The position numbers and the translations under genes were made by a program. This document shows positions 6,825 through 49,031 of a stretch of DNA of 64,000 nt, piece by piece; the stretch's first letter is position 1; every line of letters starts with the position of its first letter. The notes under the pieces are model-generated. The model was not told the origin of the DNA. It made no database searches and was given only the letters and a program-made list of their open reading frames with translations. The stretch spans positions 246 to 64,245 of the forward strand of contig NQOV01000005.1 in the NCBI GenBank assembly GCA_002632265.1, read 5' to 3'. Origin of the DNA: Rhodospirillaceae bacterium MC!. Its GTDB lineage: Bacteria; Pseudomonadota; Alphaproteobacteria; MC1.

Positions 6825-7190
6825 TTATAACAAACGCATTCCGAAAAAAAATGCTGTGAGTGATAGTAACACATTTAAGAGTATATTTACAAAGCCTTTT
6901 ATTTTACTTCGCTCCAAAAGATAATATGTATCCAAAGAAAAGCTTGAAAAGGTGGTGAAAGATCCACAAAAACCAGTCATTAACATATTCCTAATTAAGG
7001 GATTAACATCATAGGTTTTAATAAGTAAGATACTGAAAATACCCAAGATGTAAGATCCGATAATATTCACTAATAATGTCCCTAGAGGAAATCTTGTTGT
7101 TATTTTTAGAGCTATTTTTCCGATGATATAACGTCCATTTGCTCCAAAAAATCCGCCGATTCCGATTAAAAGTATATTTAAATATATCAT
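6825..7190 (-). CDS. crcB: CrcB/Fluc fluoride channel subunit (second of pair)
   Basis: 121 aa, four predicted membrane helices. Both Fluc signatures are present: GGFFGANGRY near the N-terminus and TGFCGSFTTFSSFS in the middle, which line the fluoride pore and central sodium site in known structures. Positive residues cluster in the TM1-TM2 loop (R-YIIGKIALKITTR) and the TM3-TM4 loop (LERSKIKG), predicting an N-out topology. The start overlaps the stop codon of the upstream crcB by one base (TAATG), so the two are translationally coupled. Fluc channels work as antiparallel dimers; this gene probably supplies the opposite half of a heterodimer. No fluoride riboswitch was seen upstream of the pair. 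Confidence 0.9.
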   Translation of the reverse strand: MIYLNILLIGIGGFFGANGRYIIGKIALKITTRFPLGTLLVNIIGSYILGIFSILLIKTYDVNPLIRNMLMTGFCGSFTTFSSFSLDTYYLLERSKIKGFVNILLNVLLSLTAFFFGMRLL

Positions 7191-7648
7191 TATTCTTTGC
7201 TACCTTCCCTATACGATGTTAGGATTCTAAATATCTTGTAAGATAGGAAAAAACATAACAAACTCAAACTCACATTTGCAATCACATTTAACACTCCTAG
7301 AGCTATCATTTTGTAATCACTAGATAAAAGCAGAGACAAGCTATTACTTGAGAATGTGGAAAAAGTGGTTAGACCACCACATAAACCAGTCATCCACAAT
7401 AAACGCATGTGTCTTAAGATCCTAACTCTCCTATGGGAAAGAAAGACAAAAAATCCCGCTAAAATACCTGCAATAAAAGAACCTAACATGTTGGCAAATA
7501 AAGTATCAAAATGAAAAGGATAATGAGATAAAGGTGTCATTTTCACATACAAACCGATAGCATAACGCAAATTAGCACCAATAAAGGCCCCAATTCCCAC
7601 ATATACATAATTAGATGTTAAAAATTTTTTAATCATGAGAAACCTCAC
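7190..7648 (-). CDS. crcB: CrcB/Fluc fluoride channel subunit (first of pair)
   Basis: 152 aa, four predicted membrane helices, with GAFIGANLRY and TGLCGGLTTFSTFS as the two Fluc signatures. Here positive charge clusters at the N-terminus (MRFLMIKK), in the TM2-TM3 loop (SHRRVRILRHMR) and at the C-terminus, predicting N-in and C-in, opposite to its partner. It is longer than the usual ~125 aa because of N- and C-terminal extensions. The stop codon overlaps the start of the next crcB. Together they fit an antiparallel heterodimeric fluoride exporter; the topology assignment is my inference from charge distribution. Confidence 0.9.
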   Translation of the reverse strand: MRFLMIKKFLTSNYVYVGIGAFIGANLRYAIGLYVKMTPLSHYPFHFDTLFANMLGSFIAGILAGFFVFLSHRRVRILRHMRLLWMTGLCGGLTTFSTFSSNSLSLLLSSDYKMIALGVLNVIANVSLSLLCFFLSYKIFRILTSYREGSKE

Positions 7649-19598: not shown

Positions 19599-19708
19599 AA
19601 GGATTGAGAGAAATTGGCTAAGATGTGCCTTAACTTAAGGCGACATGTACAACATGTTTACCTTAGCCCTAATTAAAGGTGCATATTAGCCCATTTATCA
19701 CAATCCTT
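19599..19708. repeat. Nested palindromic element A
   Basis: About 110 nt. Left arm AAGGATTGAGAGAAATTGGC... pairs imperfectly with the right arm ...CCATTTATCACAATCCTT. The apical hairpin is ACATGT-ACA-ACATGT and the conserved 3' bulge is TTACCTTAG. The right edge overlaps the stop codon of the minus-strand membrane-protein gene (19707). The left flank CCACCACCGCAAGCC is shared with element B, so A looks like a moved copy of B. Confidence 0.75.
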
Positions 19709-20369
19709 ATTGTTGGTATTTGTTCATGGTGGTATGCCTTAGATATTTTAACATCATGCCCCATAGAGAGCCTGATACTATCCAGAAGACGAATAGGGGA
19801 ATCCAGAGTATTAGGTAGTAGGTTAGCATGTTTGAGGTTGGGGGGATTTTTGTGCCTTGGGATGTTCCGCCTATTATTATTGGTAGGAGCATTAGGAAGA
19901 TTCCGAATACTCTGGCGAAACCTGATAGGGCTTGGGATAGGAGGTAGACTCCTGTTGTACTCATTATCATGCTTCCGAACCACCAGAATATAAAGGCGTG
20001 TTCTAGGTAGGATGGTAGGGTGTTTGGTAGTACTACTGCTATGCGGGCGTTTGTTGCTACGCAGAAGATGTAGAAGCAGGTTGCTCCCATTATACAGCCT
20101 ACTTTGAAGCTTGCTAGTCTGTCGAAGATTAGGAGTGTGAAGATACTTAGAACTATCATCATTAGATAACTAAATAGTAGGCAACCTATTAGGAGCGGTA
20201 TTAGATTTGGCACATGTTTTATGGGGTTGTATCCTGAGTCTTCTAGGAGTTGGGATATTATTACCCTGCCCCATAATAGTTGTGGTAAGAATATTATTAT
20301 ACCGCCTATCGTACCTGAAAATAATATACTTATTATGATACTTTTAAAAGAATATTGTATATCGTTCAT
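19707..20369 (-). CDS. Multipass membrane protein, possibly CbtA-like
   Basis: 220 aa with about six hydrophobic helices and few charged residues. I do not recognise it firmly. The C-terminal stretch (IPPTSNMLTYYLILWIPL followed by FWIVSGSLWGMM) is loosely like CbtA, a putative cobalt transporter subunit, but no cobalamin riboswitch or cobalt genes lie nearby. Its last codon overlaps palindromic element A. It is the last gene of a minus-strand run containing the TrpBA-like and O-antigen-ligase-like genes, separated from them by element B. Function unknown. Confidence 0.6.
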   Translation of the reverse strand: MNDIQYSFKSIIISILFSGTIGGIIIFLPQLLWGRVIISQLLEDSGYNPIKHVPNLIPLLIGCLLFSYLMMIVLSIFTLLIFDRLASFKVGCIMGATCFYIFCVATNARIAVVLPNTLPSYLEHAFIFWWFGSMIMSTTGVYLLSQALSGFARVFGIFLMLLPIIIGGTSQGTKIPPTSNMLTYYLILWIPLFVFWIVSGSLWGMMLKYLRHTTMNKYQQ

Positions 20370-20464: not shown

Positions 20465-20602
20465 CCACCACCGCAAGCCCTAGGATTGTGATAAATGGGC
20501 TAAGATGTACCTTTAATTAGGGCGACGTGTACTCACGTCTACATAAGCCCTAATTAAAGGTGCAGATTAGCCCATTTATCACAATCCTAGCTAGAGTGGT
20601 GG
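20465..20602. repeat. Nested palindromic element B
   Basis: Outer stem CCACCAC...CTAGGATTGTGATAAATGGGCTAA pairs with a nearly exact complement ending in CACAATCCTAGCTAGAGTGGTGG. The apical hairpin is CGTG-TACT-CACG with 3' bulge TCTACATAAG. The extreme right arm is formed by the last codons and stop of the 51-aa ORF (20591). A partial extra right arm (CAGATTAGCCCACTC) lies just before it at about 20448. Confidence 0.8.
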
Positions 20603-20748: not shown

Positions 20749-22050
20749 TTATTTTTGATCCTTAAATACTTCATATTCTAGATAGGTAATTACAAAGTTT
20801 GACATGCCTAGGGATATGGATATGGCTAGTACGAACCAGGTTTCCCACATGCCCCATGCTGTATTTTGTATGGCTGTAATGATTATAAAACTCATCATTA
20901 GAAGTAGTCTAGCATATTTTGGCAGGTTTTGGGAAAATATTTTCTTTAGAAGAGTTGCTAGGAATAAACAATAGGCTATTATGCCGAATAAACCGTATTC
21001 TATCCATATTTGCAAGGCTAGATTATGGGGATGATGTGTGAAATGTGTCATTACGCCTTTTACTACTCCGGGGCGAATCAATTTATTACTCATTATTGCT
21101 GTTATGTATCTTGTGCTATGAGAGCCATGACCGAATAACCACGCTTTATTTATGAGCATGTGTGAATATTCCCATATTACGTATCTATCTAATAAAGATC
21201 CTGTGGAATAGCTTTTGATTTTTTCCATTAGGGACGAGTCGTATAGCATACCGAAAAAGCTAGGGAAAAATAGATAGTATAGGGAGATTGTTATTACAAA
21301 AAACCAGAGTGCTAATTTGCGTGGAAGTATTAGCATGATTATCATGGCAAATACGGCCATTATTATGCCTGCGTATCCTGTATAGAAATAGTTTGTTATA
21401 ATGGACGCTAAGGAAATGAATATCAGAGCGAATACCAATTTAAACTTTCTTTGTTTGTACAGAATTATGGCTACACTCCCTAGTAAGCCTGATTTTAGAG
21501 TCTGCACTCCTTCGAGCCAAAATTGATTTTTGTAGTTTGTCTTCTTGTGAAATAGGATCTCGCTTATTTTACCTGCTAATAAGCTATCTAGTATCATTAA
21601 TACACTCACTAGTATTATGATGTAAGCTATATAATCACAGCCTTTTTCTCCGTATTTATTAAGGAATGTATGGAGGCGGACTAGCTTAAATTTATGGGGG
21701 CTTTTCTTGTGTTCTTGTGTTTGGCTTTCTATTTTTGGGCTATATTTTGAAAGCCAATATAATGCTTGAAATCCTAGAATAAATAGTAACAGATTAACAC
21801 TAATTGATACGCCCTTAAGGGGTCTTACTGCCCAAGATGACGCAATGAAAGACCATAGAACTATTAATAAAAGTATGGCTATACTTCTATTAAGAACGAG
21901 TTTACAGCGATGGATTAACATATATATTAAAGTAAATATCACAAAGGGAGAGTAAATAACTACTATGGCGTGTTTATTTATATAGGTAAACAAAACCGCA
22001 AGAAAAATCATCAACATAAATGTATAATTTCTTATTGCTAAATTATTCAT
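20749..22050 (-). CDS. O-antigen ligase / polymerase-like (Wzy_C) membrane protein
   Basis: 433 aa with about eleven hydrophobic helices. A periplasmic loop contains the FGHGSHSTR and THHPHNLALQIWIEYGLFG segments, the conserved His-Asn and E-x-G pattern of the Wzy_C O-antigen ligase family, which joins or polymerises surface polysaccharide on lipid carriers. The N-terminal WSFIASSWAVRPLKG block also fits. Its start overlaps the end of the TrpA-like gene by 8 bp (ATGAATAA), so translation is coupled. No other LPS genes are adjacent; a FemAB-like gene and an acyltransferase occur further away. The exact glycan is unknown. Confidence 0.8.
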   Translation of the reverse strand: MNNLAIRNYTFMLMIFLAVLFTYINKHAIVVIYSPFVIFTLIYMLIHRCKLVLNRSIAILLLIVLWSFIASSWAVRPLKGVSISVNLLLFILGFQALYWLSKYSPKIESQTQEHKKSPHKFKLVRLHTFLNKYGEKGCDYIAYIIILVSVLMILDSLLAGKISEILFHKKTNYKNQFWLEGVQTLKSGLLGSVAIILYKQRKFKLVFALIFISLASIITNYFYTGYAGIIMAVFAMIIMLILPRKLALWFFVITISLYYLFFPSFFGMLYDSSLMEKIKSYSTGSLLDRYVIWEYSHMLINKAWLFGHGSHSTRYITAIMSNKLIRPGVVKGVMTHFTHHPHNLALQIWIEYGLFGIIAYCLFLATLLKKIFSQNLPKYARLLLMMSFIIITAIQNTAWGMWETWFVLAISISLGMSNFVITYLEYEVFKDQK

Positions 22051-23335
22051 GGGGTTTTTCTCCTGTTGTTAAGATTGTTGTGGGTTCTTTCACGCCTGAT
22101 GATGATGGTTGTTGTTGTTGCTCTTTATCTTTGGGTTTATTATCCACTAAAATGGTATTGTCTACATTTTGGTTGTTTTGATCTGTTTTAGCTATCTCAT
22201 CCACATGTTCTTCTTTGGTTGGTTCGAGATTTTCTTGATCTGTATCATCGTTGATCTCTTCGTCCTCTTGGGTTTGTAAGGCTTTAAGTTCTTGCTCCCG
22301 TTCTTCTTTGGTTTTAAGATCAATTACATCGATTGTAACTTCATTATCAAGTAAATTATCGATGTCGATATGAGTATCTTCAGCAATGGGATTGAGATCT
22401 TTTTTTGCATAATCATCGAGTAACTTCTTCACGTTAATATACTTTTTGGCTTTTTCCACTACTCGATTAATTATGATATTATTTTGCTCATACAATACTT
22501 TATCTTGAAAGTTCTCAAGCTCTGATGTTTGCATATACTGTAATGTGGGCAAGCATGATTTAAAGGAAAATACGTCAATTTCATCGATAATACTAGCGAG
22601 ATTTTTAATGTTATCATCATCGGTAATATGTAAAGATCCGCATACGGAAATGCCTTTGGTAGTTTCTTCTTTAAGATGTTGAATTTCTTTAATTACTTGA
22701 TCATCAATGACAGATTTTACAAGACTTGTAGGATTATCATTATTAACCACTAGCACATTTTTATAAATCATAGATATATTATTGGCTGGATTGTTAAGGG
22801 CTAGTATGTGATTTTCATTGTGCTTTTTACCAAGGGAACAAGTGAACTCTACCTTATTTCGGCGTAAATAGGGAGAAATCTCGTAAAGTTTTGCCATGGG
22901 AAGATTTTGGATGTTAAGAACATTAATCCCACTTAAATGACATTTTTTGATGAATTTAGCAAGCCCATAATTAAAAACAGACGAAAAATAAGAACGTAAA
23001 ATAATAGGAATTCTACAACCTCGTTGACGAACTAAAGAAACTAAATCAAAACAATCAGATAAGTAAAAGTTATTGGATAAGGCGTGATCCATGGCTTTTT
23101 TAATGCTTGTATCTTCGAGAAAGGCGTCTTGAGTGGGGACAAATAATTCTATCATTTTTGCCCCATTGCTTTCCAGTTGAACAATCATTTCCGCACAGGC
23201 TGGAACGTTGGGTAATCCTGCCACTAACATGGGTAAAAAGAACGCACCTGCATTTTCTTTTTTGATGTATTCCACGTATTCATATAAGGTATCAAAACCT
23301 AATTGTTCTTTTTTTATTACTCCTTCAATAAACAT
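22043..23335 (-). CDS. Degenerate tryptophan-synthase-alpha-like protein with acidic tail
   Basis: 430 aa. Residues ~20-270 align with the TrpA TIM barrel: GAFFLPMLVAGLPNVPAC, then GAKMIELFVP (equivalent of catalytic Glu49 kept), DAFLEDTSIKKA where TrpA has a catalytic Asp60 (Glu occupies that column), and IPIILRSYFSSVFNYGLAKF. The phosphate-binding GF-GI and GSA loops are not recognisable (VCGSLHITDD, FKSCLP). The last ~160 residues are an added acidic and Gln-rich tail. It begins 4 bp after the TrpB-like gene, exactly as trpA follows trpB. Probably not a normal tryptophan synthase; role unknown. My alignment is by eye. Confidence 0.7.
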   Translation of the reverse strand: MFIEGVIKKEQLGFDTLYEYVEYIKKENAGAFFLPMLVAGLPNVPACAEMIVQLESNGAKMIELFVPTQDAFLEDTSIKKAMDHALSNNFYLSDCFDLVSLVRQRGCRIPIILRSYFSSVFNYGLAKFIKKCHLSGINVLNIQNLPMAKLYEISPYLRRNKVEFTCSLGKKHNENHILALNNPANNISMIYKNVLVVNNDNPTSLVKSVIDDQVIKEIQHLKEETTKGISVCGSLHITDDDNIKNLASIIDEIDVFSFKSCLPTLQYMQTSELENFQDKVLYEQNNIIINRVVEKAKKYINVKKLLDDYAKKDLNPIAEDTHIDIDNLLDNEVTIDVIDLKTKEEREQELKALQTQEDEEINDDTDQENLEPTKEEHVDEIAKTDQNNQNVDNTILVDNKPKDKEQQQQPSSSGVKEPTTILTTGEKPHE

Positions 23336-23339
23336 TTTC

Positions 23340-24548
23340 TTACAAACGTCCTTTAATATATTTAGATAGGGCTATCCTATCGTTTTCCGTGGGAGCATTT
23401 ACACTTAATAAAATGGTTTTAGATTTGTGCATTTCCTTTGCTCTTTCAAAAGCATATGCTAAAGAGTATCCTGTAAATACCGAGCTAATAATTCCCTCAT
23501 TACGTGCAAGAGATAAACAAGCCTCTAAAGCTTGAGTATAAGTTACTGATGTTGTTATAATCTTTTTTTGATCATAAAGATGAGCCACTTCAGGAGCGAT
23601 TACAGGATATACTAAATTTTCTATTTTTGTTTTATAACTGGTGATTGTGTTATGTTGGTTATGTAAATAGCGAGTTTTTAGCCCACAGGTAACCCCTACT
23701 TTTGTGTGTTCTAGTACGCCGTCAAAGGCTTGATCTTCAGGAAGACCAGCTTCAGATTTCGGCTCAACGGCTACGAATTCGAGATCAGGCTTATCGCAAA
23801 AGGAAGAATATAGCGATATAATATGCGAACCTTGAGAAAGGGGCGAGACAATTACATCAGGCAATTTATTATATTCTTCAAGGATCTGCTCACGGGCCTC
23901 GTTACCGATAATTTTTAAAATATCGTGAAAAATTCTAGAATAAGGTTGAGGCGACGCTGGCGAATAAGGGATGTAAAAATATTTATCAATGTTCTCATAC
24001 CACATGTTTAATGTTTCGGATGTGGTGGTTAGTAATTCCGAGTTATGATTTTCTGTAGTTACGATCTTCGCACCTAATAAACGCATGGCGTACATGTTTG
24101 ATTTACGTAAGGAATTCGACTTATTGGCTTCGATGTCCGCATTCATAACCGTACATTTTAAGCCTAAAGTAGCACAAGCCGAGGCCACTGCTACCCCGTT
24201 TGATCCTGCCAATGTTTCCGAAAGAATATGAGTTTCCCCAATCATTTTAGCAAACAAGGCCATGCCTAAGGATGTAACAAGATTCCCGTAAGCCGTATGT
24301 GTTTGATCTTCACGCTTTAAAAGGATCTTGGCACATTCGCCCTCATTTGATAGATTAGTGTTACGTGCTTCGGTTAATTTTGTTGGTCTTAAACCATAAT
24401 GAGATAATAAGAATTTTAATTCGTCAATATATTCTTGGGATTCTCTTATCTCATCCCACTTATTAGCAATGTAATCCAAACGGCCGGCTAATGTTTCAGG
24501 CACATACGCATCGCCATACTCACCACAAATTCCATTCATAATTGTCAT
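23340..24548 (-). CDS. Degenerate tryptophan-synthase-beta-like protein lacking the PLP lysine
   Basis: 402 aa, the length of TrpB, and alignable along its length: GEYGDAYVPETL, LLSHYGLRPTKL, LLKRED, LGMALFAKMIG, SETLAGSNGVAVASACATLG, MRLLGAKIV, PQPYSRIFHDILKIIG, and EGIISSVFTGYSLAYAFERA. Between the fixed anchors KRED and LG-AL-AK, where TrpB has HGGAHKTN with the Schiff-base lysine, this protein has HTAYGNLV, so Lys is replaced by Asn89. The phosphate loop GGGSNA is SQGSHI, and LSGRGDKD is VNAPTENDR. The Glu of the ETGAG motif remains. Likely a pseudoenzyme partner of the next gene, or an enzyme with new chemistry. Confidence 0.75.
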   Translation of the reverse strand: MTIMNGICGEYGDAYVPETLAGRLDYIANKWDEIRESQEYIDELKFLLSHYGLRPTKLTEARNTNLSNEGECAKILLKREDQTHTAYGNLVTSLGMALFAKMIGETHILSETLAGSNGVAVASACATLGLKCTVMNADIEANKSNSLRKSNMYAMRLLGAKIVTTENHNSELLTTTSETLNMWYENIDKYFYIPYSPASPQPYSRIFHDILKIIGNEAREQILEEYNKLPDVIVSPLSQGSHIISLYSSFCDKPDLEFVAVEPKSEAGLPEDQAFDGVLEHTKVGVTCGLKTRYLHNQHNTITSYKTKIENLVYPVIAPEVAHLYDQKKIITTSVTYTQALEACLSLARNEGIISSVFTGYSLAYAFERAKEMHKSKTILLSVNAPTENDRIALSKYIKGRL

Positions 24549-24732: not shown

Positions 24733-25119
24733 AGAGAATGGATAAGTTAGCCACTATGCACTTCTTAAAGGTGCATAGTGGCTATCCATAAAAGCTTATA
24801 AAAGCTCGGAAAATTAGTCAATATGTGCCTTTAAGAAGTACGACGTGTATAACCTTAATACATTAGTACTTCTTAAAGGTGCATAGTGGCTATCCGTACA
24901 AGCTTATAAAAGCTCGGAAAATTAGTCAATATGTGCCTTTAAGAAGTACGACGTGTATAATCAACTACATTAGTACTTCTTAAAGGTGCATAGTGGCTAT
25001 CCATAAAAGCTTATAAAAGCTCGGAAAATTAGTCAATATGTACCTTTAAGAAGTACGACGTGTATAACCAACTACATTAGTACTTCTTAAAGGTGCATAG
25101 TGGCTAATTTTCCGAGCTT
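24733..25119. repeat. Array C of nested palindromic elements (three tandem units)
   Basis: Three tandem units of 107-108 bp (right arms starting at 24761, 24869, 24976, 25083, so four right arms). Each holds TTAGTCAATATGTGCC..GAAGTAC, apical TGTA/TACA, bulge ACTACATTAG and GTACTTCTTAAAGGTGCATA. Only the copy touching the asmA-like stop (25120) has fully matching outer arms (AAAAGCTCGGAAAATTAG with CTAATTTTCCGAGCTTTT). It would act as a giant terminator for the minus-strand gene. The rest of the 571-bp gap holds the operon promoter near 24650. Confidence 0.85.
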
Positions 25120-28100
25120 TTATTTGTTGTCGATTGTTTTGGATGGAGATACCAAGCTATCTCTTAGGGTGAACCAGTGTTGACTAGATCCTTTTGTTAC
25201 TAGGCCGTTGGCTTGGATTTGGCTTTTTTCTAGGTTTACTATTCCGTCTAGTGTGCCTTTTACTAGGGAGTTGGAGATTGTGCCGTTGGAGAATTTTAAT
25301 AGTCCTGTGTTTATGTCGAAAGGCGAGCTAAAACTGTATGGGGATTGCTTGTTGTTTATTAGTGTTAGGATATCGTAGATACTTCCTAGTGGTGCTAGGG
25401 TTGTTGGTTTTTTGCGTCCTAGATATTGGATGTTGGAAAATGAGACATTACCATTACCGTTTATGTTGTCGAATATTTGTTGGATATTGTAGCCGTAACC
25501 TTTTATGTTACCTTTTGATGTAAACTGTCCTTGAATGCCGACTTTTGGCAAAATTGTTTCTATGTCGATGTTATCGGTTGTCCATGTTAGTGATGATGTG
25601 GGCATGGCGGTATTTGTATCCCATGTGAATTGAATGCTTGCGGTGGGTTTTATTAGGCTATCTGTTGTATTATCTTCATAGCTGGCGAAATTTAGCTCGG
25701 TATTATCTAGGCTAAAAATACCACTTACTGCATTTGCTTTTAGAGATACATTTTCTATGTATGTTTTGTTGATGTAGAATTTCTTAACATTTAGCTTAAG
25801 ATCCATGTTGAGATTTTGCATTAACTTAATTAACGGCGGTTGATAATCGTTCACATTTATAACCGTGTTATCATTGCTATTTGCTGTTACGGTATTTATA
25901 GCTGTGGGATTGGCTGGTGCAGAATTTAAAGCTTGATCTGTGGTGGGAGCATTCGCTATAGTATTAGGATCTGTATTAGGATCTGTAGAATTATTGCTTG
26001 TGGCTTGATCTGTGGTGGTGGGCGTATCTGTTGGATTGGCGATGTTTAAATTATCCACATTCTCATTATCTTGAATTTTGAGCGTATCTGTTTGCACATT
26101 ATTATCGACGTGTTTAACTACGGAATAATTAACAACCGCTTGCGGTTTTTTCGTATAAATATTTTTTAAGATATCATAGGAAAATTCTTCCGTATTAAGA
26201 TTCATGGCTAGATTGGGGATCTCTTTCGTTGTATCCAAGGTAATATTGCCGTCGATATCGCTCTTGCCGATAGTAGCGTCCAACTCTGAAAGATTATAAA
26301 CGCCGTCCAACTGTGATCTTTTAATTACCGCCGATAGGGCAAGCTCTTTGCTTGGGGTATTGGGCTTAATATTAGTATATCCTAAAGTATTAAGTAGATT
26401 ATTGACGTTATCATCGGATAAATTCAAGACCATGGGATACATAACGCCAGTTTGCCAAGATCCGCCCGTGCGTATGCGTCCTTTCATGGTGCTATATGAG
26501 AATATCATGTCGGCATTGGTGTTTTTTACTCCGCCGTCAATGGTAATTACTGCATTAGCTGGAATATTACTTGGTAAGATGTTACTATCGAGAGCATTGG
26601 CACTATCTTTTAAGTTTGCTTTAATAATCACATTGTTAAAGTTGGGATCGCTAAAGATCTCATCGATCTGCCCTTGAACAGAGATAGAACCGTCGCCAAT
26701 GGGCATGGCTTTAAAGTGGTTGATCTTTAAATCTCCTTGATCAATGGATAAATCAAGATTAACATCCTTTAAGGCAATACCTGATAAGGTCGCATCTGTG
26801 GAAATCAACTTAATGGAAGTCGGCGAATCAAAAGCCTCTTGACTAAAGACCTTAGAGAGTCCTCCTGTAAAAGAATTGTTTTCTACAGAAGATATAGTTT
26901 GAATAATATAAGGCACCCAATCATCAAACGGGATAGTGCTAAAACTACCAGCCATATGCAATTCTTGATCGTTAGTAAAGCTTTTAGTAAGAGATCCTTT
27001 AAAGTTTAAAGATCCCATGTTAAAAACTAAGCTTTTAAGTTGTAATTTATGGCTATCCATTAGGACGTTAGTTCTAAAGGACGCATTTAATTCATTATTA
27101 GTGGTGGTTTTCGCTTGAATTCCCAACCACTTCAAGGTATTTGTAGGATTGTTACTATTAAACAAGATAGTACCGTCAAGCATGGGTTCGCCCTTGCTGG
27201 AATGAATGAATCCGAACAGCTTAAAAGACGCATCCCCTGGAAAACTTGCCGACGCTTCCTTAATTAGAATTTCGTTAGATTGAACTTTTGCCTTAAGGAT
27301 GAAATCCTTAGCGGTGGCGTTTAAGATGTTAATGGTGCTTGCTTTGTTTTCGATGTTAATATCTAAATGCTTAGGAAGTACCCAACTGACCTTGTATTTA
27401 GTCTTCTTAACTACTGGATTTTTCATATTATTAACTAAAGCTGATCGGCTACTTATGGGAGTTATTGCCGATATCCTATGAATAAGCACATCCTTTCCCA
27501 AGTTCGGATTGTTATCTTCAGGATGAATAGTGTTAATGTACGATATTAAAGAATTAATATCAAAATTTTTACTGGTAGTTTGAATATTTATTTGGGCGTC
27601 TGATACTTCTTCTTTTAGTGGCACATAAGAAATCTTACCATTGGTTACTTGCGATAAACTATTAATAGTAAATTTAGAGCTAGCCCAAGATTTATCATTG
27701 CTTTCTTTTAATTCAAGATTAATATCTAAAGGGATATCTAAAGCCACTGGCGGACTACTTAAATTTAATTCTGATAGTAATTTATCGGTAGAGTTAACTT
27801 TAATGTGTGCTTTTATGCTATTGGCTTTAAATAAAGCATCACTAATGCGAGAATCAAGTCGACCAGTTAAAGCACCGTTTAATAAGTTGAAATCAACCAA
27901 GGTATAAATGGAACTTTTCGAGCCTGTGCGATACATATTGCCATGTAAGGCGATATCTAAGCCTTTCCAATTGAGCGTAATAAGACCATTTAAAGAATCC
28001 TTTTTTAAGCCTAGGTTGGTATTAATCCCATTTATGCTATTTTCTGATTTTGAAATATAATTGGAAATAACTAAAGTTCCATTGGTAATGTTTAAATGGG

Positions 28101-44668: not shown

Positions 44669-45964
44669 TTATTTTTGGGAAGTTTTCTTTTTATCCTGCT
44701 TATGCCAATATATTGCGAAGACACTCACAAGCAATATCAACGCTACACTTATGGCAATTGCCGAGACGGTTTGAAAGTTCGTAGATGAGGCCATACGAGA
44801 TGCGGTATAGCTACCAATAACACCACCTAAAGCACCGAGTAATCCTGATAAAGCTCCTGCACTTCCTTTGAAATTCTTACTCATTGAGAGTAAAAATTGA
44901 TTCATTGGGGCGTTTTGTAAGCCCCTAACAAATAGGCATAGACCCATGGGTATGACCAATCCTAAAGGATAACTACCAAAGAAATACACCCCAATCATAA
45001 ACAATATGGAACAAAAAGGCATGATTAGAATAATGATATTAACTGTTTTACTCACACCGAAACGATGAGACATATATATAGCTCCGTTATTACCTGCTAT
45101 CAATCCTATAAACACGGGCATTTGCCATAGGGAATACTGTTCTGGAGTTTGCCCTAGGTTCATCAATAATACAGGAGCACCCGTGATCCATATCATAAAG
45201 CCAAAACTGGCGATACACCCAACCATTGCATAAGCCATAAAGGTTTTATTTTTTGAAAGCATGATCATCCCACGGAACTTAGATAGTAAAGATGTACCCT
45301 TATGACTATAGGGATTTTTTTCCAACTCTGCTTGTTCTTCTACGCTTAATTTATCATATAACTTAGGATTTTTATAGTATTTACGTGCTAACACATCCTT
45401 ATTGGTTTCTGGCATATATAAAATAATTAGCAACAGAGCAAATAACATTAGAATATTATCATAATAAAAGATATTTCGCCAACTTCCTGTAAATTTTAAG
45501 ATATACGCTCCAATTACTGGTCCAAATAAAGGGGCAAGTAAGGAAACATTCGCAGTATATGACATGGCTTTTACTGCTTCTTTATCTTCATAGAATTCAT
45601 TGATGGCACTAAAACCAGACGCACCAATTACCGCCATTGTTGAGCCTGAAAATATACGAGCAATTAAGAGACCTTTCAAATTACTTGTGAATCCGCAATA
45701 AAAATTTGCGATTAGAAACACTATACCGCATATGATAATGGTTATTTTTCTTCCATATTTATCCGATAAAGGGCCAAGAAAAAGTTGACATCCTAACAAA
45801 CCTACTAAGAACATGGTAACCGCCAGTTCTACCGCTCCTTTATCCGTGTTCATATCACGTGCTATATGGCCCATGGCAGGTAAGAAAGCATCGTTACTTA
45901 AGAATACAGTTCCTGCAAATAAAGCTATGAGCCAATAAAATTTGTCATGTAAAAATTTCTTCAT
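44669..45964 (-). CDS. Bcr/CflA-type MFS drug exporter, copy 1
   Basis: 431 aa, twelve predicted helices. The N-terminal AGTVFLSNDAFLPAM and GPLSDKYGRKITI (the MFS motif A loop) plus GASGFSAINEFYEDKEAVKAM and NISLLAPLFGP-type motif C (here NVSLLAPLFGPVIGAYIL) identify the DHA1 Bcr/CflA family of proton-driven exporters. It is one of three tandem paralogues and the only one whose promoter carries the shared operator-like site. Substrate unknown; could export sugars, antibiotics or other small molecules. Confidence 0.88.
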   Translation of the reverse strand: MKKFLHDKFYWLIALFAGTVFLSNDAFLPAMGHIARDMNTDKGAVELAVTMFLVGLLGCQLFLGPLSDKYGRKITIIICGIVFLIANFYCGFTSNLKGLLIARIFSGSTMAVIGASGFSAINEFYEDKEAVKAMSYTANVSLLAPLFGPVIGAYILKFTGSWRNIFYYDNILMLFALLLIILYMPETNKDVLARKYYKNPKLYDKLSVEEQAELEKNPYSHKGTSLLSKFRGMIMLSKNKTFMAYAMVGCIASFGFMIWITGAPVLLMNLGQTPEQYSLWQMPVFIGLIAGNNGAIYMSHRFGVSKTVNIIILIMPFCSILFMIGVYFFGSYPLGLVIPMGLCLFVRGLQNAPMNQFLLSMSKNFKGSAGALSGLLGALGGVIGSYTASRMASSTNFQTVSAIAISVALILLVSVFAIYWHKQDKKKTSQK

Positions 45965-46004
45965 AATTCATACCTTATCTTGTATAAATGGTTTATTTAA
46001 ATAT

Positions 46005-46078
46005 ATTATATGCAATTCTCTTGAGTTTGTCAACAGATTAAAGAAGAATCGCAAATATAATTTTTGCTTTCGCAAATT
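46005..46078 (-). promoter_or_regulatory. MFS copy 1 promoter with operator-like site
   Basis: Minus strand TTGACA (46028-46033), 17 bp, TATAAT (46005-46010): perfect consensus. Inverted repeats GCAAA..TTTGC..GCAAA at 46050-46078 match the deoR-promoter site at 25 of 29 positions, with paired changes that keep symmetry. Confidence 0.7.
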
Positions 46079-46105
46079 TTTTTATGGGTGGGGAGAGTGG
46101 ATATA

Positions 46106-47401
46106 TTAAGGGTTCATATTACGATCTCTTTCATAGTCTTTACGATGCCAATATCTTGCAAGAATCCCAACAAACAAAACCAAAGCCACACTAATCGCAA
46201 CTACTGATATGGTTTGAAAGTTCGTAGCTGACGCCATGCGAGATGCGGTAAAACTACCAAGAACGCTACCTAAACCGCCGAATAATCCTGATAAAGCTCC
46301 AGCACTTCCTTTGAAGTTCTTACTCATTGAGAGTAAGAATTGATTCATGGGGGCATTTTGTAAGCCACTAAAGAGTAAATATATTGTCATGGGTACAACC
46401 ATTCCTAAAGGATAACTACCATAAAACCATGCTCCAATCATAAACAATATGGAACAAAAAGGCATGATTAAGGTAATGATATTAACGGTTTTACCAACGC
46501 CAAAACGTTGAGCCATATACATAGCTCCGTTGTTGCCGACCATAACTCCTATAAAAACAGGGAATTGCCATAGGGAATATTCTTCTGGCGTTTGCCCTAA
46601 ATTCATCAATAAAACAGGCGATCCTGTGATCCATATGAGCCAGCCAAAACTAATAATACAACCGATCATTGAATAAGCCATAAAAGTCCTGTTCTTTGAT
46701 AACATAACCATGCCACGGAATTTCATCAGTAAAGATTCGCCCTTATGGGGATTTTTTTCTAACTCTGATTGTTCTTCTGTGCTTAATTTATCATATAACT
46801 TAGGATTTTTCTGATATTTACGTGCTAACACATCCCTATTGGTTTCTGGCATATATAATAGAATTAATAACATAACAACCAACATCAAAATATTATCATA
46901 ATAAAAGATATTTCGCCAATTTCCTGTAAACTTCAAGATATAAGCTCCAATGGCAGGACCAAATAAGGGAGCGAGTAAGGAAATGTTGGCGGTGTATGAC
47001 ATGGCTTTTACCGCTTCTTTTTCTTCGTAAAATTCATTTATGGCACTATAGCCAGAGGCCCCAATTACCGCCATTGTTGAACCTGAAAAGATACGAGCAA
47101 TTAGTAAGCCTGTTAAACTGCTTGTATATCCACAATAAAAATTCGAAACTAAAAACATTAAACCACATGCTAAAATGGTGGTTTTTCTTCCGTATTTATC
47201 TGATAGGGGTCCCATAAAAAGCTGAAAAATTAACGCACCTGCTTCAAACATAGTAACCGCCAATTCTACAGATCCTTTATAAATGCCCATATCACGTGCT
47301 ATAGTATCCATAGCAGGCAAAAAAGTATCGTTACTTAAAAATACAGTCCCTGCAAAAAAAGCTATTAAAAGATAAAATTTATTATGTAAAAAATTCTTCA
47401 T
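46106..47401 (-). CDS. Bcr/CflA-type MFS drug exporter, copy 2
   Basis: 431 aa, twelve helices, closely similar over its full length to copies 1 and 3 (shared blocks GPLSDKYGRKTTI, RIFSGSTMAVIGASGYSAINEFYEEKEAVKAM, LRNIFYYDN-like region, QNAPMNQFLLSMSKNFKGSAGALSGL). The C-terminus is ERDRNMNP. No clear -35/-10 pair lies upstream; palindromic array H fills that gap, so it may be read from copy 3 or from a weak promoter. Function is assigned only at family level. Confidence 0.87.
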   Translation of the reverse strand: MKNFLHNKFYLLIAFFAGTVFLSNDTFLPAMDTIARDMGIYKGSVELAVTMFEAGALIFQLFMGPLSDKYGRKTTILACGLMFLVSNFYCGYTSSLTGLLIARIFSGSTMAVIGASGYSAINEFYEEKEAVKAMSYTANISLLAPLFGPAIGAYILKFTGNWRNIFYYDNILMLVVMLLILLYMPETNRDVLARKYQKNPKLYDKLSTEEQSELEKNPHKGESLLMKFRGMVMLSKNRTFMAYSMIGCIISFGWLIWITGSPVLLMNLGQTPEEYSLWQFPVFIGVMVGNNGAMYMAQRFGVGKTVNIITLIMPFCSILFMIGAWFYGSYPLGMVVPMTIYLLFSGLQNAPMNQFLLSMSKNFKGSAGALSGLFGGLGSVLGSFTASRMASATNFQTISVVAISVALVLFVGILARYWHRKDYERDRNMNP

Positions 47402-47449
47402 AATTTAACTCCCACACATTTTTTCTTAGGATGATATTTATTATTCAAG

Positions 47450-47729
47450 CCCCCACTTAAAACCGCCGAATGAGTGCTTTTTCCTGCTCCACAACCCAAG
47501 GGGTGGGAAAAAGTGCTTAGTCAGTGTCCTTAAGTGGGGCGACGTGTACTTACACGCCTACATAAGCCCCGCTTAAGAACGCTGAATGAGTGCTTTTTCC
47601 TGCTCCACAACCCAAGGGGTGGGAAAAAGTGCTTAGTCAGCGTTCTTAAGTGGGGCGACGTGTACTTACACGCCTACATAAGCCCCGCTTAAGGACGCTG
47701 AATGAGTGCTTTTTCACATCCCGCCCCTT
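47450..47729. repeat. Array H of nested palindromic elements (2.5 units of 116 bp)
   Basis: Two full units (starting 47500 and 47616) plus the right half of another (from 47450). Arms GGTGGGAAAAAGTGCTTAGT and ATGAGTGCTTTTTCCTGCTC; inner stem TTAAGTGGGGC / GCCCCGCTTAA; apical hairpin CGTGTA-CT-TACACG; 3' bulge CCTACATAAG. It ends at the stop codon of MFS copy 3 (47730). Confidence 0.88.
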
Positions 47730-49031
47730 TTAGGATTCTGTTTGGGAGTTAAGCTGTTGCTCATTATCTTTGCGACGCCAATATCTTGCTAAGATACCAA
47801 CGAATAAGATTAAGGCTACACTAATGGAAATTGCTGATACTGTTTGCAAATTCGTAGATGAGGCCATTAGAGATGCGGTATAACTTCCGATTACGCTACC
47901 TAAACCTGCGATCAATCCTGATAAAGCTCCTGCACTTCCTTTGAAATTATTGCTCATTGAGAGTAGGAATTGATTAATTGGAGCATTTTGTAAGCCTCTG
48001 AATATTAGATATATGGTCATGGGTATTACTAAGCCTAAGGGACTGTTACTGAAGAAATATACTCCTATCATAAACAATATGGAACAAAAAGGCACGGTTA
48101 GAGTTATGAAATTCACTGTTTTATCTACACCGAAACGTTGGGACATATATATCGCTCCGTTATTTCCTGCGATCAAGCCGATAAACACGGGAAATTGCCA
48201 TAGGGAATATTGCTCTGGTGTTTGCCCTAGATTCATTAATAGCACTGGCGATCCTGTGATCCATATCATAAAGCCAAAGCTGGCGATACAACCAACCATT
48301 GAATACGCCATAAAGGTCCTATTTTTTGATAACATAATCATACCACGAAACTTGGCTAGTAAAGATGTACCATGATTGGAATTATTTTCCAACTCTGCTC
48401 GCTCTTCGATAGTTAATTTATTATATAATTTAGGATTTTTCTGATATTTACGCATTATCACATCCTTATTAGTTTCTGGCATGTATAAAATAATTAGTAA
48501 CATGACAAATAACATTGCAATATTATCGTAATAGAAGATATTTCGCCAATTTCCTGTAAATTTCAAGATGTATGCTCCAATTACTGGCCCGAATAAGGGA
48601 GCAAGTAAGGAAATGTTTGCAGCGTATGACATGGCTTTTACTGCTTCTTTATCTTCATAGAATTCATTTATGGCACTAAAACCAGACGCACCAATTACCG
48701 CCATTGTTGAGCCTGAAAATACACGAGCTATTAGTAAACCTGTTAAATTGCTTGTGTATCCACAGTAAAAATTCGAAATTAAAAACACTACGCCACATGC
48801 TATAATGGTTGTTTTTCTTCCGTATTTATCTGATAAGGGACCCATAAAAAGCTGAAGTACTAAAGATCCTGTTACAAATAAGGTTACTGCCAATTCTATC
48901 GAGCCTTTATCTGTGTGCATATCAGTTGCTATAATATCCATAGCGGGTAAAAAAGCATCATTACTTAGAAATACAGTTCCTGCAAATATGGCTATTAGCC
49001 AATAAAAATTATTATGTAAAAACTTTTTCAT
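47730..49031 (-). CDS. Bcr/CflA-type MFS drug exporter, copy 3
   Basis: 433 aa, first gene of the tandem trio in transcription order. The same family blocks are present (SNDAFLPAMDIIATDMHTD, GPLSDKYGRKTTI, GASGFSAINEFYEDKEAVKAMSYAAN). The extra C-terminal tail ends in SQTES. It has its own promoter (49066-49094). All three copies keep intact frames and core motifs, so none is an obvious pseudogene. Confidence 0.88.
   Translation of the reverse strand: MKKFLHNNFYWLIAIFAGTVFLSNDAFLPAMDIIATDMHTDKGSIELAVTLFVTGSLVLQLFMGPLSDKYGRKTTIIACGVVFLISNFYCGYTSNLTGLLIARVFSGSTMAVIGASGFSAINEFYEDKEAVKAMSYAANISLLAPLFGPVIGAYILKFTGNWRNIFYYDNIAMLFVMLLIILYMPETNKDVIMRKYQKNPKLYNKLTIEERAELENNSNHGTSLLAKFRGMIMLSKNRTFMAYSMVGCIASFGFMIWITGSPVLLMNLGQTPEQYSLWQFPVFIGLIAGNNGAIYMSQRFGVDKTVNFITLTVPFCSILFMIGVYFFSNSPLGLVIPMTIYLIFRGLQNAPINQFLLSMSNNFKGSAGALSGLIAGLGSVIGSYTASLMASSTNLQTVSAISISVALILFVGILARYWRRKDNEQQLNSQTES

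Follow-up and report, generated by a model that had tools for sequence, protein, structure and literature searches.

The nearest precedent that we found is, by analogy, the TSB-like protein of eudicots, a catalytically dead beta subunit of tryptophan synthase that acts by allosteric activation of the alpha subunit (PMC12727527). TSB-like carries Ala in place of Glu109 (Ser or Pro in Solanaceae) and Glu in place of Asp305, partners a live TSA, and is proposed to form a salt bridge between the new Glu and an Arg or Lys (PMC12727527). In urogenital Chlamydia trachomatis, TrpA makes no indole from IGP and is kept for its partner (PMC6635532). A further paper on bacteria (PMC6522883) does no more than cite a different pseudoenzyme. 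Our search of the open-licence literature yielded no case with both tryptophan synthase subunits degraded and, among titles and abstract starts, no bacterial tryptophan synthase pseudoenzyme. The numbers Glu109 and Asp305 are carried over to TSB-like on our own assumption, as is the use of Asp305 for the salt-bridge Asp of the plant study.

Here we describe a paired pseudo-tryptophan synthase that is real, unusual and known from a single genome, whose lineage is isolated. It is encoded in the stretch of 64,000 nucleotides analysed here (the window) by two genes, trpB* and trpA* (table 1). A first-pass annotation had singled out trpB* as a TrpB-like gene that has lost its PLP lysine; since the adjacent gene encodes a degraded TrpA, the unit is a pair and not a single protein. 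In the plant case the beta subunit only is inactivated, by other residues, and has a live alpha partner, whereas TrpB* keeps Glu109, has lost Lys87 along with most of its PLP site, has Val at Asp305 and lies beside an alpha subunit that is degraded too (PMC12727527). The TSB-like signature (Glu109 to Ala, Ser or Pro, and Asp305 to Glu) is absent from TrpB*, which has Glu111 and Val313 at these positions. TrpA* resembles the chlamydial TrpA in being, as judged by its sequence, an alpha subunit without lyase chemistry, but in Chlamydia a live TrpB needs full-length TrpA (PMC6635532), whereas TrpB* looks dead too and a canonical pair is present in the same genome.

Table 1. Positions of the trpB*-trpA* pair, its diagnostic sites and the downstream gene within the window.
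Feature	Coordinates	Strand	Basis
trpB*, TrpB-fold protein of 402 aa that lacks the Schiff-base lysine	23340..24548	minus	sequence, profile searches, predicted model
Asn89 codon, position of the invariant PLP lysine	24282..24284	minus	alignment
Glu111 codon, kept catalytic Glu (Glu109)	24216..24218	minus	alignment
SQGSHI, residues 238-243, replacing the PLP-phosphate loop GGGSNA	23820..23837	minus	alignment
Val313 codon, replacing Asp305, the acid in the allosteric salt bridge between alpha and beta	23610..23612	minus	alignment; Asp role PMC12727527
trpA*, 430-aa degraded TrpA paralogue, barrel approx. residues 9-303 plus acidic low-confidence tail	22043..23335	minus	profiles, alignment, model
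TrpA* C-terminal tail, residues 304-430	22046..22426	minus	composition, pLDDT, Pfam scan
wzy, Wzy_C / O-antigen-ligase-like membrane protein, 433 codons	20749..22050	minus	Pfam

The PLP site of TrpB*

TrpB* was aligned with 73 canonical TrpBs from class loci, the TrpB of its own genome included. We assume that Salmonella residue numbers (Lys87 and so on) apply to these positions, and the choice of active-site positions is likewise ours. Asn89 takes the place of Lys87 with no gap against any of the 73 sequences, in agreement with the fixed-length alignment on which the first-pass annotation had based its claim. The Schiff-base Lys is invariant in the class sample (73/73) and is present in all of the best 80 among at least 591 TrpB relatives that an alignment query found in genome_contigs. 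Around it, His86 has become Gly88 and Gln114/His115 have become Ser116/Asn117. The three altered loops pointed out earlier were all recovered: the phosphate loop GGGSNA reads SQGSHI, with three of the five letters of GGGSN changed to give SQGSH; the loop S377-G-R-G-D-K382 reads N384-A-P-T-E-N389, so that NAPTEND stands for the SGRGDKD of LSGRGDKD; and Val313 occupies the position of Asp305. Within the second of these loops all of Gly378-Lys382 are changed. Glu350 is replaced by Phe358, and there are further changes at Gly111, Gly189 and Gly303 (Salmonella numbers).

Among the 25 active-site columns that passed the conservation limit, TrpB* retains eight: Glu109, Thr110, Ala112, Gly113, Gly234, Ser235, Leu304 and the Tyr of residue 306. 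In its own numbering these include Glu111, the catalytic Glu already recognized as retained, Thr112, Ala114, Gly115 and Gly240-Ser241. Of the 136 columns that are at least 95% conserved in canonical TrpBs, 56 are kept and 80 changed, structural ones included. A lysine placed elsewhere in the PLP site had been named as an observation that would speak against the loss; TrpB* has 26 lysines in total, none of which aligns with one of the 29 active-site positions examined, and a replacement lysine was rejected on this basis. As read from the alignment, TrpB* is unable to bind PLP through a Schiff base, and its PLP site is mostly lost.

Profile searches gave best matches to NF010376, which models a fusion of TrpF and TrpB (255 bits), and to TIGR00263 trpB (245 bits, under the curated cut-off of 392), with 88 bits against Pfam PALP. 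All non-TrpB families listed scored far lower (30 bits for cysK), ruling out a better match to another PLP-fold family, the other objection that had been foreseen. The structures of both proteins were predicted with AlphaFold2 from 70 sequences for TrpB* and 54 for TrpA*. Apart from TrpB* and TrpA* themselves, the aligned sequences are those of canonical enzymes, and the models are pulled towards the TrpB and TrpA folds. Within that limit, the TrpB* model (mean pLDDT 85.9, pTM 0.89) has TrpBs as its best PDB matches (7rnq_B, Z 51.0, rmsd 2.2, 387 residues aligned; 1bks_B, Z 50.4). This superposition, proposed as a check at the outset, is consistent with the suggestion that fold-level blocks are retained, as are the conserved columns outside the active site, of which 48 of 111 are kept.

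As a yardstick of divergence we used nine paralogues of TrpB2 type found in this class, all nine over the PRK12391 and TIGR01415 cut-offs. These TrpB2 / TrpB-like PLP enzymes are, like TrpB*, distant paralogues of TrpB. Their identity to the canonical TrpB of the genome that carries TrpB* is 28-31% (28-29% for TrpB*). Each of them keeps the lysine and 20/25 active-site columns, whereas TrpB* has Asn and keeps 8/25; of the other conserved columns they retain 42-45/111, against 48/111. At equal distance, therefore, TrpB* keeps scaffold columns as these annotated-enzyme paralogues do, with its active site lost. Within TrpB* alone the loss of active-site columns is not significantly greater than that of other columns (8/25 vs 48/111, p = 0.37); the case for active-site loss, as an argument from aligned residues, rests on the contrast with TrpB2. 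TrpB* also misses the TrpB2 cut-offs by a wide distance (TIGR01415, 85 vs 519 bits; PRK12391, 82 vs 366 bits). A total of 28 loci were taken, seven of which lacked a usable open reading frame, and the lysine is present in all 21 others. Among the 21 are four TrpBs of one family (L193, L194, L195 and L197; family f99) from genomes of approximately 1.2-1.3 Mb, which carry NGGAHKIYN where the canonical TrpB of the trpB* genome has NHTGAHKIN. They are 39% identical to that TrpB, keep the lysine and 18/25 active-site columns, and look like a clade of divergent TrpBs confined here to small genomes.

These comparisons bear on whether TrpB* could have acquired new chemistry, as a PLP-free enzyme built on Glu111 and the E-T-x-A-G-x-x-G-V-A segment. 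The retention of Glu111, Thr112, Ala114, Gly115 and Gly240-Ser241 would fit such an enzyme. Against this, those residues may be structural, a mere eight of the 25 active-site columns survive, and a single sequence does not allow a new set of conserved residues to be recognized; we regard this as quite improbable.

The TrpA paralogue and gene order

TrpA* scores 80 bits against Pfam Trp_syntA (profile positions 6-157; cut-off 27) and 78 bits against TIGR00262 trpA, under the curated NCBIfam cut-off of 102. TrpB* and TrpA* are thus both recognizable tryptophan synthase relatives that lie below equivalog limits. Compared with 69 canonical TrpAs, TrpA* retains 11 of 38 conserved columns: nine are among the 23 of the first half and two among the 15 of the second. 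The TrpA residue names used here for its positions (Tyr175, Thr183, Gly184, Gly213 and Gly234) are those that we take to apply. Glu49, present in 69/69 canonical TrpAs, is retained. Asp60 is replaced by Glu, a residue also found there in 3/69 canonical TrpAs, so that this change alone is no sign of inactivity. In the second half, where the alignment is less certain, the Tyr175 equivalent is altered, Thr183-Gly184 of loop 6 are replaced by Asn-Asn (69/69 and 69/69 in canonical TrpAs), and at the phosphate site Gly213 is replaced by His and Gly234 by Phe (68/69 and 68/69). TrpA* thus keeps Glu49 and appears to have lost its loop-6 and phosphate-site residues, the latter with the uncertainty of the second-half alignment.

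The predicted TrpA* structure has a mean pLDDT of 67.8, and its barrel (residues 9-303) matches TrpAs (5kmy, Z 30.4, rmsd 2.2, 260 residues aligned). In the tail, where 36 of 127 residues are Asp or Glu, pLDDT is mostly low, with a helix predicted for residues 343-366. No Pfam family reaches its cut-off over residues 306-430.

The gene for TrpA* begins 4 bases downstream of trpB*, and the start of wzy overlaps the end of trpA* by 8 bases, with AGGAG preceding the wzy ATG. Promoter-like and terminator-like sites occur at chance level only. From this order, gap and overlap, trpB*, trpA* and the O-antigen-ligase-like gene probably share one message. The latter is the only above-cutoff Wzy_C gene in the 95.5%-complete assembly. 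Downstream of wzy, positions 19707-20369 encode a 220-aa membrane-type protein with no Pfam match and atypical codon usage (0.61). Upstream of trpB*, three tandem copies of a 107-nt palindrome (44-nt arms, 93% complementary, 23-nt loop) occupy 24744-25123, and wzy is followed by a related palindrome at 20480-20590; by their sequences they look like a REP/MITE-type family.

Gene integrity and distribution

The first-pass annotation had placed trpB* at 23340-24548 with an intact, full-length frame. Both hold true: the gene lies there on the minus strand with 402 open codons, while the other two frames of that strand contain 34 and 43 stops (25-56 in the same-strand other frames of the genes compared). 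Codon usage is 0.77 for both trpB* and trpA*, within the range of other named genes (0.69-0.79), on a yardstick of eight window genes that are themselves among the genes compared. When substitution-only drift of the genome's own trpB to 30% identity was simulated, 200 runs gave a mean of 19 stops and a minimum of 10. Taken together, the simulation, the open frames and the codon usage argue for selection at the protein level during most of the past divergence, and on the same three grounds a sequencing error or a pseudogene is not the simplest reading. The data support the interpretation of trpB* as a full-length open frame that has been kept and encodes a TrpB-fold protein lacking the PLP lysine, and we infer some other role for it.

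The canonical trpB that the annotation had suggested looking for is present elsewhere in the genome (2.05 Mb in 19 contigs). On contig C18, genes of trpD, trpC, trpF, trpB and trpA type stand in a row, with Pfam matches to Glycos_transf_3, IGPS, PRAI, PALP and Trp_syntA (251 bits). The canonical TrpB carries KREDLNHTGAHKIN, GGGSNA and LSGRGDKD. Genome-wide there are two TrpB-type and two TrpA-type matches, and TrpB* and TrpA* are, respectively, 29% (over 390 residues) and 25% (over 124) identical to the canonical copies. Directly downstream of canonical trpA, three membrane proteins that resemble one another and measure 457-459 aa are encoded in tandem (L174:4077-8381), and the one of them that was scanned is an Acyl_transf_3 acyltransferase (80 bits). 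Envelope-type genes thus come after both tryptophan synthase loci, perhaps by chance.

Orthologues sharing the substitutions of TrpB* had also been proposed as a check, and no orthologue of either TrpB* or TrpA* was found in the collections searched. In genome_contigs, 39 pattern matches to a TrpB* query included no relative; in viral_contigs, 18 matches for TrpB* and six for TrpA* likewise included none. TrpB* has matches in 291 of 385 class genomes, its own included, which besides its own reach at most 198 bits and, among the matches listed, at most 35% identity; TrpA* has matches in 274 of 385, besides its own at most 64 bits and mostly over the first 165 residues. Both sets are at the level of canonical enzymes. 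Own order is represented by one genome in the sample. In a phylum sample that overlaps the class sample, five of 397 genomes besides its own reached E 1e-60 with TrpB*, and the four of these that were read all have the Lys; a search with TrpA* residues 160-330 matched none of the 397 (1/398, own only). Altogether the lysine is present in all class and phylum matches read, comprising the 73 alignment rows and 25 more loci, four of them from the phylum search. Searches of plasmid and phage sequences yielded 122 and 17 records, respectively, with identities of 30.6-33.2% in the eight best of each (16 of the 139). A fragment with 37% identity in genome G029 is a TrpB that has the GAHK motif and is cut by a contig end.

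A tree was built from 73 rows (TrpB*, own TrpB, 36 from the class and 35 others), every second row having been taken. The terminal branch of TrpB* measures 10 changes per site, and because it is so long the placement of TrpB* failed; the tree speaks neither for nor against a recent duplication from the genome's own TrpB.

Such a branch, the lack of any orthologue in the collections searched and the 80/136 changed columns, structural ones among them, are what would be expected if trpB* and trpA* were functionless duplicates heading for loss. We consider this improbable: the two adjacent frames are open over 402 and 430 codons at only 29% and 25% identity to the canonical copies, whereas all 200 neutral runs to 30% identity accumulated at least 10 stops; codon usage is host-like and the gene starts are closely coupled; and the 48/111 conserved columns kept outside the active site match the level in TrpB2.

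Possible roles of the pair

The altered copy probably works by binding rather than catalysis. The reading that we prefer, with about an even chance of being right, is that trpB* and trpA* were duplicated together, diverged strongly and now encode a non-catalytic alpha-beta pair acting in this way. Tryptophan synthase would have been copied as a pair, both subunits losing their chemistry and keeping their folds. TrpB* and TrpA* would form a tryptophan synthase-shaped alpha-beta complex, which may bind a ligand or partner via the cavities of the former active sites or via the acidic tail of TrpA* and could thereby act as a regulator or scaffold. A point against assembly with TrpA* is Leu173 of TrpB*, at the position of Lys167, which we take to be an alpha-contacting residue of TrpB. 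For the allosteric salt bridge, we assume Arg141 to be the number of the partner residue, which is Lys143 in TrpB*.

The plant precedent suggests a different use of a dead beta subunit. TrpB* could be the allosteric partner of the canonical TrpA, where it would yield free indole or tune tryptophan output, or of TrpA*, re-specified as a lyase acting on another substrate. Such a mode has a described parallel in the eudicot beta subunit that activates alpha, in which a charge like that of Lys143 is also allowed at the partner position (PMC12727527). TrpA* for its part keeps Glu49 and has, at Asp60, the Glu seen in 3/69 canonical TrpAs. However, the residue at Asp305, described in that report as universally Glu in TSB-like and proposed to hold the activating salt bridge, is Val in TrpB* (PMC12727527). 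With the charged partner kept as Lys143 but the acid replaced by Val313, the TSB-like mechanism becomes less likely for TrpB*. TrpA* moreover lacks the equivalents of Thr183, Gly184, Gly213 and Gly234, and if the canonical TrpA were the partner, a dedicated and equally diverged alpha subunit would be unnecessary. On balance, we hold an activating role of this kind to be rather unlikely.

A bolder variant, which we judge unlikely, is that a complete alpha-beta synthase has been duplicated and repurposed as a unit in an operon with wzy. Dead TrpB* would then be its allosteric or structural half, whereas TrpA*, with a Glu/Glu acid pair left in a remodelled site, would sense or cleave a new substrate. 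If true, a repurposed paired pseudo-synthase would tie an amino-acid-enzyme shell to envelope glycan assembly.

To return to a non-catalytic pair acting by binding, tryptophan synthase is the textbook example of two enzymes coupled by allostery and channelling, and a naturally dead pair beside a canonical one would be a natural experiment separating what assembly needs from what catalysis needs. It would also extend the 2025 plant beta-pseudoenzyme finding to bacteria, where inactivity would have come about differently, by losing the cofactor lysine, and would involve the alpha subunit as well.

Elsewhere in the window, 44669-49031 contains a row of three MFS transporter genes that closely resemble each other (431-433 aa), each of them exceeding the MFS_1 cut-off. 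An ATP12 chaperone (118 bits) is also encoded; such chaperones are typical of Alphaproteobacteria, which is therefore the probable class of this genome. Two adjacent CrcB-type open reading frames of 121 and 152 aa (90 and 78 bits) lie at 6825-7648, presumably as in dual-gene fluoride channels.
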